From NCBI RefSeq assembly GCF_017094525.1, contig NZ_CP064788.1, forward strand, positions 1,411,030-1,475,029: 64,000 bases of DNA, given 5' to 3'. Below, in pieces: positions 3,554 through 41,782 of this stretch (positions are counted from its first letter, which is position 1; every line of letters begins with the position of its first letter). Position numbers and translations under genes: made by a program. Below the pieces are notes generated by a model. It did not search any database. It saw nothing but the letters and a program-made list of their open reading frames with translations, and had not been told where the DNA came from. Source of the stretch: Halapricum desulfuricans (lineage in GTDB: Archaea; Halobacteriota; Halobacteria; Halobacteriales; Haloarculaceae).

Positions 3554-3631
3554 TACTGATGGCGATCCCCTTTCGAACTGATCTGGCACGCCGGCGTGCC
3601 AGATATCCTCACGAACGTCTAGCCACCAGTA
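3554..3631 (+). repeat. TGA-flanked palindromic element, complete copy (beta-1)
   Basis: A 78-bp element with outer arms TACTGATGGC and GCCACCAGTA and a perfect 20-bp centre, CTGGCACGCC/GGCGTGCCAG. TCA lies on both sides (3551-3553 and 3632-3634). The right TCA is, on the minus strand, the TGA stop codon of the ABC permease. It has the same length and shape as the copy at 13915-13992, and the two share ATATC(C/T)T(C/T)ACGAAC right of centre. Confidence 0.8.
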
Positions 3632-9088: not shown

Positions 9089-9160
9089 TAGTGGCCGTTG
9101 TACGTCCCTTTCGGATCAACCGCACGACCTCGTGCGGTCGCACCGCTACAACGGTCACTG
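9089..9160 (+). repeat. TGA-flanked palindromic element, complete copy (A)
   Basis: A 72-bp element. Outer arms TAGTGGCCGTTGTA and TACAACGGTCACTG are inverted repeats; the inner hairpin is ACCGCACGA/TCGTGCGGT. TCA is directly repeated at both edges (9086-9088 and 9161-9163). Left of the hairpin it carries GTACGTCCCTTTCGGATC, matching the conserved box of the copies at 12719 and 41626. The other spacer is about 8 bases shorter than in those copies. It lies upstream of aIF2-beta. Confidence 0.8.
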
Positions 9161-12718: not shown

Positions 12719-12798
12719 TATGGGTTATTGTACGTCTGTTCCGGATCGGTCGCCCGATGCAGGGCAGCCGGAGCGGTAAATCGTTACAGTAATCTGTA
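12719..12798 (+). repeat. TGA-flanked palindromic element, complete copy (D)
   Basis: An 80-bp element with imperfect outer arms TATGGGTTATTGTA and TTACAGTAATCTGTA. It has the conserved boxes GTCTGTTCCGGATC and GGTAAATCGTTACA, and an imperfect inner stem around GGTCGCCCGATGCAGGGCAG. The left edge is TCA (12716-12718), the right edge TCG (12799-12801), so the direct repeat has one mismatch. It lies between the thiolase and M42 peptidase genes. Confidence 0.7.
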
Positions 12799-13914: not shown

Positions 13915-13992
13915 TACTGCTGGCTGTAACAAACTGAAGGAATTCGCCACCCCGGGGTGGCGAATATCTTTACGAACTTACAGCCGGTAGTA
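13915..13992 (+). repeat. TGA-flanked palindromic element, complete copy (beta-2)
   Basis: A 78-bp element with outer arms TACTGCTGGCTGTAA and TTACAGCCGGTAGTA and a perfect inner palindrome ATTCGCCACCCC/GGGGTGGCGAAT. TGA is directly repeated at both edges: the left TGA (13912-13914) is the M42 peptidase stop codon, the right is 13993-13995. It has the same length as the copy at 3554-3631. Confidence 0.85.
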
Positions 13993-21631: not shown

Positions 21632-23092
21632 CGTTACTTCCCGAACGAGTCGAGAGGATGCTGCCTGAACGCCGCGAAACAATCACTTTCTGTATGATTT
21701 GGCGGTCAGTCTCGGCTGCTACCGCTGCGTAGATCAAGACAAGTCTAATTCACCACTCCAAACAGACGATCTCACCCGGACTTCGACGGTCTCTGCCGAC
21801 AGCTGTTGCTCACCGCCCAACGAATAGGCTGTGGGCTGACCCCAGTCAGCCCGCTGCCGTTGCCTGTGACGCCCGCACACCAACCCCGTTCGCTTTGATC
21901 TTCCACCGGCGGTGTAACTCCTCTTCCAGTTCGTGCCGAATCCAGTCACAGAACGTCTTGAACGTGAACTCCTCGGGCAGGTCGCGCCCGCCCCGCCGCG
22001 GGCGGGCGACGACCGCCCACCTCAGCACGAGCCACAGGTTCTCCAGCAGTGCCGCGACGAGCATAATCGCAAACCGCACGATTGGATCACGTGTCGTCGT
22101 GATCCCGCGTGCTTGCCGCAGCAAGCGATAGGTTGTTTCAATGCCTGACCGCTTCCTGTAGAGGCGTTCGACCTGCTTGGCCGAGCGATCAGTAACGCCG
22201 CACGCGACGTAGCCACGGACAACCTCACCGTGCTTGCCGCGATCACCGTTTTGGTAGGAGACAGCGACCACGAGCGGGAAGCGCAGTTCCCGCTCGCTGT
22301 CTTTGTACATACGATAGGTCGTCATGTACGACTTGTGGACGTCGAGTTTGTCCTTCATACGTTCGCCCTTCTTGGGCACGTGAACGACCGTTGCGGCGAT
22401 ATCACGAGCACGGCGGATGACGCGTTCGTTGTAGAATCCGCTGTCGGCAAGCAGCAGGTCGATCTCGAAGGGGTAGTTCTCGACGCGGGCGAGCACGCGC
22501 TCGACCGCGTCAGCCTCATCTTCGTCACTGCGGACATACGTCATCGCCAGCGTCACCGGCTTCTTGTTGGAGACGACGTAGGCCGTGCAATAGCGGTGGC
22601 AGGTAGTTGTCCCGTCCTTGGGAGCCATCGAGCAGAGTTCGCCGTCGTCGGCGTAGTGCTCGCCATGATAGGGGTTATCGATGAAGTCGATGGAGACGAT
22701 TCTCGACCGGTCAGGGTCGAGAATCGTCATGGCGAGGCGTCCGAGCAGACGGTTAGCGACGAACTCGAGCCACGCTCGGTCGAGCGTATGGAGCCATGTG
22801 AAGACAGTGTCGTCACACGGCGTTCCGTTGGTGTCGTTGCAGGTTTCCCAGATTGAGGTCTGGTTGACGCAAGCCAAGATGACGACGAGCCAGATGTCGC
22901 CGGGGTCGAGGGGGCTCCCCTCGACACCCGGCAACGGGAGTGGAGTAATGACTTCTTCCGCTACGTCTTTCACGTCCGATGCCGAAAGGTAACCGTCTGG
23001 ATCGGGGATCTTGAACACATCCAGATCCAGACACTTTCTCGTTGTTAACTCGGCGATTCAATTCCGCTGATTACGCCGGTTGGGAAGTACCG
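21632..23092 (-). mobile_element. ISH3-family insertion sequence, copy 1
   Basis: A 1461-bp insertion sequence. Ends are CGTTACTTCCCGAAC (left) and, inverted at the right, CGGTACTTCCCAACC, about 15 bp with four mismatches. It encodes one transposase on the minus strand. Flanking five bases are AAGGT (left) and AAGCT (right), a possible imperfect 5-bp target duplication. The right about 530 bp are identical to the copy at 27056-28516 while the left part differs by many bases. Confidence 0.85.
21846..23018 (-). CDS. Transposase of IS copy 1 (IS4 superfamily, ISH3 group)
   Basis: DDE transposase of 390 residues (GTG start, MFKIPDPDGYLSASDVKDVA). Catalytic landmarks are the first Asp region VSIDFIDNPYHGEHYADD, the second Asp in LLLADSGFYNERVIRRARD, and the Glu in RLYRKRSGIETTYRLLRQ, followed by VARPRRGGRDLPEEFTFKTF, close to ISH3/ISH51-type enzymes. 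No frameshift is visible, so it may be active. It differs from the other copy at six residues, all in the C-terminal two thirds. Confidence 0.9.
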   Translation of the reverse strand: MFKIPDPDGYLSASDVKDVAEEVITPLPLPGVEGSPLDPGDIWLVVILACVNQTSIWETCNDTNGTPCDDTVFTWLHTLDRAWLEFVANRLLGRLAMTILDPDRSRIVSIDFIDNPYHGEHYADDGELCSMAPKDGTTTCHRYCTAYVVSNKKPVTLAMTYVRSDEDEADAVERVLARVENYPFEIDLLLADSGFYNERVIRRARDIAATVVHVPKKGERMKDKLDVHKSYMTTYRMYKDSERELRFPLVVAVSYQNGDRGKHGEVVRGYVACGVTDRSAKQVERLYRKRSGIETTYRLLRQARGITTTRDPIVRFAIMLVAALLENLWLVLRWAVVARPRRGGRDLPEEFTFKTFCDWIRHELEEELHRRWKIKANGVGVRASQATAAG

Positions 23093-27055: not shown

Positions 27056-28516
27056 CGTTACTTCCCAAATGAGTCGAGAGGGGCCTGTCTGAACGGCCCG
27101 AAAAAGTCACTTTCTGTATGATTTGACTATCAGTTTCGGCTGCTCCCGCGGTGTAGATCGAGATGATTCCGATTCACCGCTCCGAACAGACGATAGCAAC
27201 CAAATCTCGCCGGTGTCTGCCGACAGCTGTCGCTCACCGCCCAGTGAACAGGCCGTGGGCTGACCCCGGTCAGCCCGCGGCCGTTGCCTGTGACGCCCGC
27301 ACACCAACCCCGTTCGCTTTGACTTTCCACCGGCGTCGTAACTCTTCTTCCAGCTCGTGCCGAATCCAGTCACGGAACGTCTTGAATGTGAACTCCTCGG
27401 GCAGGTCGCGCCCGCCCCGGCGCGGGCGGGCGACGACCGCCCACCTGAGCACGAGCCACAGGTTCTCCAGCAATGCTGCGACCAACATGATGGCAAACCG
27501 CACGACAGGATCACGCGTCGTCGTGATCCCGCGTGCTTGCCGGAGTAAGCGGTAGGTTGTTTCAATGCCAGAGCGTTTCCTGTAGAGGCGTTCGATTTGC
27601 TTGGCCGAGCGATCAGTAACGCCGCACGCGACGTAGCCACGGACAACCTCACCGTGCTTGCCACGATCACCGTTCTGGTAGGAGACAGCGACCGCGAGCG
27701 GGAAGCGCAGTTCCCGCTCGCTGTCTTTGTACATGCGATAGGTCGTCATGTACGACTTGTGGACGTCGAGTTTGTCTTTCATGCGCTCGCCCTTCTTCGG
27801 AACGTGGACGACCGTTGCGGCGATATCGCGAGCACGGCGGATGACGCGCTCGTTGTAGAAGCCGCTGTCGGCAAGCAGCAGGTCGATCTCGAAGGGGTAG
27901 TTCTCGACGCGGGCGAGCACGCGCTCGACCGCGTCAGCCTCATCTTCGTCACTGCGGACATACGTCATCGCCAGCGTCACCGGCTTCTCGTTGGAGACGA
28001 CGTAGGCCGTGCAATAGCGGTGGCAGGTAGTTGTCCCGTCCTTGGGAGCCATCGAGCAGAGTTCGCCGTCGTCGGCGTAGTGCTCGCCATGATAGGGGTT
28101 ATCGATGAAGTCGATGGAGACGATTCTCGACCGGTCAGGGTCGAGAATCGTCATGGCGAGGCGTCCGAGCAGACGGTTAGCGACGAACTCGAGCCACGCT
28201 CGGTCGAGCGTATGGAGCCATGTGAAGACAGTGTCGTCACACGGCGTTCCGTTGGTGTCGTTGCAGGTTTCCCAGATTGAGGTCTGGTTGACGCAAGCCA
28301 AGATGACGACGAGCCAGATGTCGCCGGGGTCGAGGGGGCTCCCCTCGACACCCGGCAACGGGAGTGGAGTAATGACTTCTTCCGCTACGTCTTTCACGTC
28401 CGATGCCGAAAGGTAACCGTCTGGATCGGGGATCTTGAACACATCCAGATCCAGACACTTTCTCGTTGTTAACTCGGCGATTCAATTCCGCTGATTACGC
28501 CGGTTGGGAAGTACCG
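27056..28516 (-). mobile_element. ISH3-family insertion sequence, copy 2
   Basis: A 1461-bp IS in the same orientation as copy 1. Ends are CGTTACTTCCCAAAT and, inverted, CGGTACTTCCCAACC. It has cut the 5' part of the second secreted-protein gene. Flanks are AATAT (left) and AAGCT (right), so no target duplication; the right flank AAGCT is the same as that of copy 1. This suggests recombination between the copies. Confidence 0.85.
27270..28442 (-). CDS. Transposase of IS copy 2 (ISH3 group)
   Basis: 390-residue DDE transposase, same family and length as the one at 21846. It is identical in the N-terminal third and differs at six positions further on (for example SNEKPV instead of SNKKPV, and EELRRRWKVKAN instead of EELHRRWKIKAN). 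Catalytic regions are intact. The frame is complete. Confidence 0.9.
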   Translation of the reverse strand: MFKIPDPDGYLSASDVKDVAEEVITPLPLPGVEGSPLDPGDIWLVVILACVNQTSIWETCNDTNGTPCDDTVFTWLHTLDRAWLEFVANRLLGRLAMTILDPDRSRIVSIDFIDNPYHGEHYADDGELCSMAPKDGTTTCHRYCTAYVVSNEKPVTLAMTYVRSDEDEADAVERVLARVENYPFEIDLLLADSGFYNERVIRRARDIAATVVHVPKKGERMKDKLDVHKSYMTTYRMYKDSERELRFPLAVAVSYQNGDRGKHGEVVRGYVACGVTDRSAKQIERLYRKRSGIETTYRLLRQARGITTTRDPVVRFAIMLVAALLENLWLVLRWAVVARPRRGGRDLPEEFTFKTFRDWIRHELEEELRRRWKVKANGVGVRASQATAAG

Positions 28517-39800: not shown

Positions 39801-39832
39801 TACGATCTCGAAAATCGTTACAACCGACCGTA
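39801..39832 (+). repeat. Short deletion form of the palindromic element (F)
   Basis: TGA (39798-39800) is followed by TACGATCTCGAAAATCGTT and ACAACCGACCGTA, then TGA (39833-39835). The right arm TTACAACCGACCGTA is the same as in the complete copy at 41626-41704. The middle and most of the left arm are gone, but both outer ends with TGA remain. Confidence 0.6.
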
Positions 39833-39881: not shown

Positions 39882-40076
39882 ATGAACGAGGACCTGCTTG
39901 ACATCATCTGTTGCCCGCTGGACAAGGCCGAACTCGAACTCGATGTCGACGACCGCGACGACGGCGAGATCGTCAGCGGAACGCTAACTTGCACGGACTG
40001 TGGCGAGACGTTCCCGATCGAGGACGGCATCCCGAACCTCCTGCCGCCGGACATGCGAGAGGAAACACCTGCGTAA
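39882..40076 (+). CDS. Trm112-like methyltransferase activator
   Basis: 64 residues: DLLDIICCPLDKAELELDVD, GTLTCTDCGETFPIEDGIPN, LLPPDM. The Cys pattern and the closing PIEDGIPNLLPPDM are those of Trm112/UPF0434 proteins, which in archaea stabilise several tRNA, rRNA and protein methyltransferases. Its stop codon TAA (40074-40076) coincides with the first conserved TAACGATTT of a truncated palindromic element. Confidence 0.9.
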   Translation: MNEDLLDIICCPLDKAELELDVDDRDDGEIVSGTLTCTDCGETFPIEDGIPNLLPPDMREETPA

Positions 40077-40141
40077 CGATTTATCGGTGCGACCACACGC
40101 CCTCGTGTGGTCGACCCAGAAGGGGCGTACAACGGTCACTG
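40074..40141 (+). repeat. Palindromic element, left arm lost (B)
   Basis: TAACGATTTATCGGTGCGA, inner hairpin GACCACACG/CGTGTGGTC, then CAGAAGGGGC and the right arm GTACAACGGTCACTG followed by TGA (40142-40144). The right arm is the same as in copy A. The left outer arm is missing: the element fuses directly to the trm112 stop codon. Confidence 0.7.
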
Positions 40142-41004: not shown

Positions 41005-41782
41005 TCAGGCGCGAACGAGTTCGTCGCCCCGGTCCTCGAGGATCTCGTTCTCGATCAGCGCGCTGAGAATCGCGTGTGTCGTATCTCGGTCGATCCCGTA
41101 CGCGCTGCGTGCAACGACCGTGATCTCCTCGATCTCGACGGGGAACTCCCGGTTCTGGAGCAGGCGCACGACTTTGTTGTACTCGCTACGCCGGAAGTCG
41201 TCGTCAGCGGTCCCCGTCTGACCCACAGTCCCCTCGCTGTCTCCCGAGTCCGTTGTCTCTCCGTCATCGAGGACTGCCGTTTCGCTCTCGCTGCCGCCCG
41301 CTATTCGGGTTTCATTGTCGTCGCTCTCGTCAATCTGAACGTCGTTTTCGTCAGCCTGAACGTCGTCTGCGTCGTGTCCGTCTGCTGGATCTCCTGAACC
41401 GTCCGATGACTCGTCGCCCAGGGAGTCGACCGACGCGCTGTCTGCTGCAGCCATCGCGTCCGGAGCGGACGCTTCGAGCGTCTCCAGTGGGTCGCCGTCG
41501 AGATCGACCGACTGCGAGTCAGGCGACTCGGTCGCAGCGTCCAACACTTCCTCGACGACGGCCGTGAGTTTGCGTCGACATGACGGACAGAGGACGACGG
41601 ACGTGCCGGTCTCGACGCTGTCTGATACGGTCGGTTGTAACGATTTACCGGTACGATCGCATAACGGATGCGATCGATCTGGAACAGACTTACAACCGAC
41701 CGTATGAGGTGACGAGCGGATACTCCTCAAGCTGGGCGTCGACGGCGTCACCGCAAAAGTAACACGAGACGAGGTTGTCCAT
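41005..41782 (-). pseudogene. Zinc-ribbon regulator-like gene interrupted by an 79-bp palindromic element
   Basis: The start ATG (41780-41782) encodes MDNLVSCYFCGDAVDAQLEE and YPLVTS, then enters the element and stops at TAA 41690-41692. The rest resumes at 41622 with DSVETGTSVVLCPSCRRKL. Removing 41623-41704 (element plus one TGA repeat) joins TCA to GAC in frame and rebuilds a CxxC ... CxxC zinc ribbon in a protein of 231 residues. The middle is an acidic disordered linker; the end (SEYNKVVRLLQNREFPVEIE, GIDRDTTHAILSALIENEIL) looks like a small winged-helix domain. The C-terminal part may still be made from an internal start. Function unknown. Confidence 0.8.
41626..41704 (+). repeat. TGA-flanked palindromic element, complete copy inside a gene (C)
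   Basis: 79 bp. The outer arms TACGGTCGGTTGTAA and TTACAACCGACCGTA are a perfect 15-bp inverted repeat; the inner hairpin is GATCGCAT-aacgg-ATGCGATC. Conserved boxes are CGATTTACCGG and CTGGAACAGAC. TGA is directly repeated at both edges (41623-41625 and 41705-41707). Confidence 0.9.

Follow-up and report, generated by a model that had tools for sequence, protein, structure and literature searches.

A 79-bp hairpin element that splits a zinc-ribbon gene of Halapricum desulfuricans belongs to an abundant MITE-like family of the Halobacteriales

Insertion into the zinc-ribbon gene

In the 64,000-bp stretch of the Halapricum desulfuricans chromosome analysed here (the window), a zinc-ribbon gene has a frame that stops after 30 amino acids and contains a short palindromic unit between two copies of TGA. 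Is this unit a discrete piece of DNA that was inserted into the gene, and if so, what could have moved it? The features at the locus are as follows (no strand is given where none applies).

41005..41622, minus strand: split zinc-ribbon gene, 3' part, CPSC motif to stop codon
41623..41625: target duplication TGA, left copy
41626..41704: hairpin MITE-like element, TACGG subfamily, 79 bp (covariance-model match, 83.4 bits)
41626..41640, plus strand: left terminal inverted repeat TACGGTCGGTTGTAA, 15 bp, perfect
41654..41676: inner stem of 9 bp, arms 41654-41662 and 41668-41676, loop of 5 nt (fold and family covariation)
41690..41704, minus strand: right terminal inverted repeat, 15 bp, perfect
41705..41707: target duplication TGA, right copy
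41708..41782, minus strand: split zinc-ribbon gene, 5' part, with start codon at 41780-41782 and CYFC motif (orthologues)

The initial annotation had described the TGA pair, the 79-bp unit and its exact 15-bp inverted ends, and all are found at these coordinates. The gene is read on the minus strand as ATGGACAACCTC...ACCTCA from position 41782, followed by the 79-bp unit and then by TCAGACAGC, so that the codons around the junction are ATG...ACC TCA, the 79 bp, and TCA GAC... Deletion of 82 bp (the unit and one target duplication) repairs the frame, as had been predicted, and leaves 696 nt, or 231 amino acids and a stop codon. The predicted C-x2-C ribbon is also present, with CYFC and CPSC, but the distance of 35 residues first given for the two motifs must be corrected: they start at C7 and C38, 31 residues apart, and 35 is their total span. 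No Pfam match was found for the 3' half of the gene or for a full orthologue.

A comparison of the joined protein with orthologues, suggested at the outset as a check, identified an uninterrupted gene in two congeners, each with a single TCA at the exact junction. The closest congener (G001) reads GCC TCA GGC CGC GTC GAG and Halapricum hydrolyticum (G002) reads ACG TCA GAC CGC GTC GAG, the insert being absent from both. Since one TCA stands in these genomes without the insert, the two TCA copies here are a target duplication. The orthologue of a remoter congener (G003) has four additional residues in the junction loop, apparently reflecting variability of this protein region rather than a remnant of the element. 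When the own genome was searched with the joined protein, no second copy of the gene was found, and its function is therefore probably lost here, unless an inner start allows translation of the 3' part.

The unit is short and has no transposase gene, as in a MITE. As single-stranded DNA it folds at -28.3 kcal/mol, compared with -10.1 kcal/mol (sd 2.0) in shuffled sequences, and none of 200 shuffles folded as well.

A family of covarying hairpins

The exactness of the repair had been taken to mean that the unit is not a product of chance and moved as a discrete piece. The chromosome (2.89 Mb, one contig) agrees with this: some 28 complete or nearly complete copies of the TACGG subfamily were located in it, four of them identical across all 85 query bases and nearly all flanked on both sides by TCA, TGA or TAA. 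Sister subfamilies, recovered in a looser end search, end in TACTGCCGG, TACTGTCGG, TACTGGTGG or TAGTGACCG, and copies of the family are nested in one another at TTA. A covariance model built from 22 diverse elements located at least 109 distinct sites in the chromosome, which is a lower bound because scoring was limited to 150 candidates and three weaker full-length matches in the window are missing from the resulting list. Exact TNA repeats, in which the middle base agrees between the two copies, flank 95 of the 109 sites (TCA 46, TGA 40, TAA 5, TTA 4); together with the two empty sites, this bears out the proposed insertion with a 3-bp duplication. The remaining 14 sites are truncated, interrupted, or differ in at least one flank or end base. 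Element length is mostly 77-80 bp. Two further members lie in the window.

13915..13992: second full family member, with TGA duplications
39801..39832: remnant of 32 bp from the TACGG subfamily, internally deleted, with TGA on both sides

Weaker or partial members of the window lie at 3554-3631, 9089-9160, 12719-12798 and 40073-40130, and the chromosomal total thus exceeds the 109 sites counted. Elsewhere, a 24-bp internally deleted remnant (L214, 2439-2462) resembles the 32-bp one in having kept both ends and its TGA/TCA duplications. Two longer forms were also encountered, both with TNA duplications: a 98-bp relative with TAGGGATTAGCGTAG ends in two Halapricum genomes (L009, 1184-1281; L084, 1941-2038), and a longer class, of some 102-109 bp, whose ends are TACTGTCGG (L336-L338 and L101).

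The gene context of the 95 sites was assessed with a simple, annotation-free codon-usage score. Four, the zinc-ribbon insertion included, lie inside an open coding frame; at 24 the duplicated triplet stands where an adjacent gene has its stop codon, as it also does in two annotated Haloarcula plasmid copies, and 67 are in neither position. Covariance-model matches were found in 71 of 145 genomes sampled at class level, many of which have at least 32, and in 12 of 197 genomes of a phylum sample, where the matches listed are all within the same order. The TNA rule holds in nearly all cases (one representative per genome). Plasmid copies occur in Haloarcula, Halomicrobium, Natrinema and others, among them copies on pHH400 of Haloarcula hispanica. 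When Haloarcula plasmids were compared, one site was empty in H. marismortui, with intergenic flanks too diverged for an exact junction. The family is abundant and widespread in the Halobacteriales.

Comparison of family members showed two-sided changes in 19 of 25 base pairs. Both stems, the outer one and a distinct inner one, thus covary, and the signal disappeared when the structure was slid. For a structure-independent sample, elements were chosen solely by their outer arms and TNA flanks and were paired by symmetry. In the 28 representatives left at the 80% identity level, which lean towards loci found by a model that itself includes the inner stem, inner positions 28-36 are 84% Watson-Crick, compared with 43% expected from independent columns. 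Positions 16-26 of the internal loop are near chance (48% versus 45% expected). The same inner stem is present in the first subfamilies, which were located by end sequence or plain similarity. Within the element ends, the terminal TA and parts such as TAC.G and TGTA are conserved. Because G-T pairs are not enriched in the inner stem (4% versus 8% expected), the pattern of substitution points to a DNA-level cause of stem conservation and not to RNA structure. The need of a transposase for two equal ends could account for the outer arms; it does not account for the inner stem.

Partner search and known systems

A transposase acting in trans, possibly of the IS5 family, had been offered as one option for movement of the unit. 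That is still the preferred reading, the TNA duplication being compatible with the IS5-family idea, but the cognate transposase was not found. In the own genome, nearby hairpin elements aside, cognate ends are absent from 21 PF01609 loci and 8 PF13358 loci, and the complete sequence yielded no long element whose ends match. In genome G164, which has about 58 copies of one subfamily, end matches number 58 forward and 59 reverse, and most of 100 end matches listed stand in 78-bp pairs. Of 16 unpaired ends that were fetched, nearly all proved to be paired when one mismatch was allowed; three had a single end, and no transposase was seen near these by eye in the listed frames. Neither the ends listed for G164 nor the other fetched loci revealed a transposase-bearing element that shares these ends. 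Viral contigs gave 44 and 1 matches, all single-ended and at about chance level (an estimate), with no pair bearing family ends, and phages gave no relevant match.

Several longer arrangements were rejected. At L034, TACTGCCGGCTGTAA ends lie 1491 bp apart and might have marked an autonomous partner, but a 1403-bp insertion sequence has landed inside a hairpin element there; it encodes a DDE_Tnp_1 transposase and has a 10-bp duplication, CTTTACGAAC. The long end pairs at L082, L098, L176, L205, L291, L292 and L346 were taken as ends of neighbouring short elements, a reading backed by element coordinates for L291 and L292. The window also contains two near-identical 403-aa DDE_Tnp_1 genes (about 22098-22574 and 27519-27998), with three further chromosomal copies.

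During the partner search an IS630-type element of 1113 bp with ends GAGTGGTC/GACCACTC was met, with copies in the own genome (G000; L354-L357) and on haloarchaeal plasmids (L362-L369). Of 12 copies examined, 10 occupy the apex of an inverted repeat (score of at least 6, compared with 1.6% of random window sites), and copy L355 lies inside the loop of a TAGTG-type member of the hairpin family. No obvious target duplication was seen for this element. Its placement is a hint that family hairpins are recognised as DNA in cells.

Among known mobile elements, the IS1031 group of the IS5 family likewise makes 3-bp TNA duplications, although its end sequences are different. The bacterial hairpin MITEs RUP, Correia/NEMIS and ERIC are small, near-fully palindromic, intergenic and numerous, with IS630-type elements as partners in the known cases; the family described here is similar in its size, near-full palindrome, intergenic placement and copy number, but duplicates TNA where they duplicate TA. 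It also differs in its TNA duplications from REP/REPIN sequences, which are not known to duplicate their target and are mobilised by a RAYT transposase.

Closer in host are the MITEs of Haloquadratum walsbyi, which are also short, non-coding and numerous, with inverted ends and target duplications, but whose ends match known transposons (PMC3119063); the present element is smaller, has a second covarying stem and is without a partner among the loci searched. The SMRs of Haloquadratum are similar in being about 100 bp long and numerous, with inverted ends unrelated to known transposons; however, they make no target duplication, SMR-A favouring palindromes (PMC3119063), and the TNA-duplicating hairpins are therefore not SMRs. 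PMC3852290 counts 19 orphan archaeal MITE-like structures, with inverted repeats, sometimes direct repeats, and no autonomous partner identified, apparently without treating them at family level; the likeness to the present family is by description only. The unit is MITE-like by its structure, duplication and copy number, and is an orphan if ends of a known transposon are required (cf. PMC3852290, PMC3119063). No earlier description of the hairpin family was found in the openly accessible papers that were searched.

How the element may have moved

The unit is very probably a non-autonomous, MITE-like DNA transposon that was moved by a transposase in trans. Such an enzyme, encoded elsewhere, would cut TNA with a 3-nt stagger and join to it the element ends, which start TAC or TAG; its putative class (DDE) is suggested by the duplication alone, no partner having been found in the loci searched. 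Insertion at TCA (TGA on the plus strand) in the zinc-ribbon gene duplicated the 3-bp target and split the gene, whose product is probably lost or shortened. The inner stem may have been kept because folded DNA, as a cruciform or hairpin, aids mobilisation, for instance by pairing ends that lie 78 bp apart. Two explanations of its maintenance are retained, namely shape-aided end pairing and arm copying by template switching.

Arm copying belongs to a reading in which these are ordinary MITEs, each subfamily having a cognate IS and transposase of its own and the symmetry of the inner stem arising from template switching. This is a credible account, if somewhat short of an even chance. The subfamilies are defined by distinct end sequences, and TNA duplications are known from some IS5-family groups. 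PMC3852290 also lists an IS5-related MITE from archaea that has a 3-bp duplication. However, no cognate IS was found for the subfamilies tested, and arm copying should have made the internal loop symmetrical too, yet the loop is at chance.

Alternatively, the enzyme could read the folded hairpin or cruciform in preference to fixed ends, so that the arms are free to drift if they remain complementary. The covariation of arms and inner stem across subfamilies, the length held near 78-80 bp and the lack of a same-ended long element in the loci searched are consistent with this, and a further hint comes from the IS630-type element of the own genome, which inserts at the tips of hairpins and in one case has entered the loop of a family member. 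Conservation of the terminal TA, TAC.G and TGTA makes some sequence recognition likely, and shape-guided transposition is at present rather unlikely. The broader proposal, of a haloarchaea-wide 77-80-bp class whose mobility is set by a stem/internal-loop/stem DNA shape and whose transposase has no same-ended IS of its own, is put forward with similar reserve.

A hairpin that serves the host, as a terminator or in a REP-like role, and spreads incidentally is improbable: copies do lie mostly outside coding frames, with the triplet on a stop codon in 24 of 95 cases, but selection against gene breaks would give the same bias, and the covarying pairs have no G-U preference, unlike an RNA function. 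An RNA intron spliced from the mRNA, named in the initial annotation as a lesser option, can be set aside as extremely improbable, since repair of the frame by removal of the unit and one duplication is outweighed by copies mostly outside genes, by target duplications and nesting as marks of DNA insertion, by stems without G-U preference, by a predicted stem closed to its tip without the bulge-helix-bulge that archaeal introns have at exon-intron junctions, and by the lack of anything near the gathering score in Rfam.

Movement as a MITE-like transposon explains the broken zinc-ribbon gene and uncovers a repeat family that is abundant in this haloarchaeon and in related ones, at whose insertions gene finders are prone to mis-start or split genes. 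The gene insertion itself is ordinary; the interest lies in a covarying, length-constrained hairpin family for which no partner was found. Its covarying arms, near-fixed length, exact TNA and lack of a visible partner raise the question of whether DNA shape can replace terminal sequence in transposition, and because pHH400 of Haloarcula hispanica bears copies, tests are feasible in a culturable archaeon.
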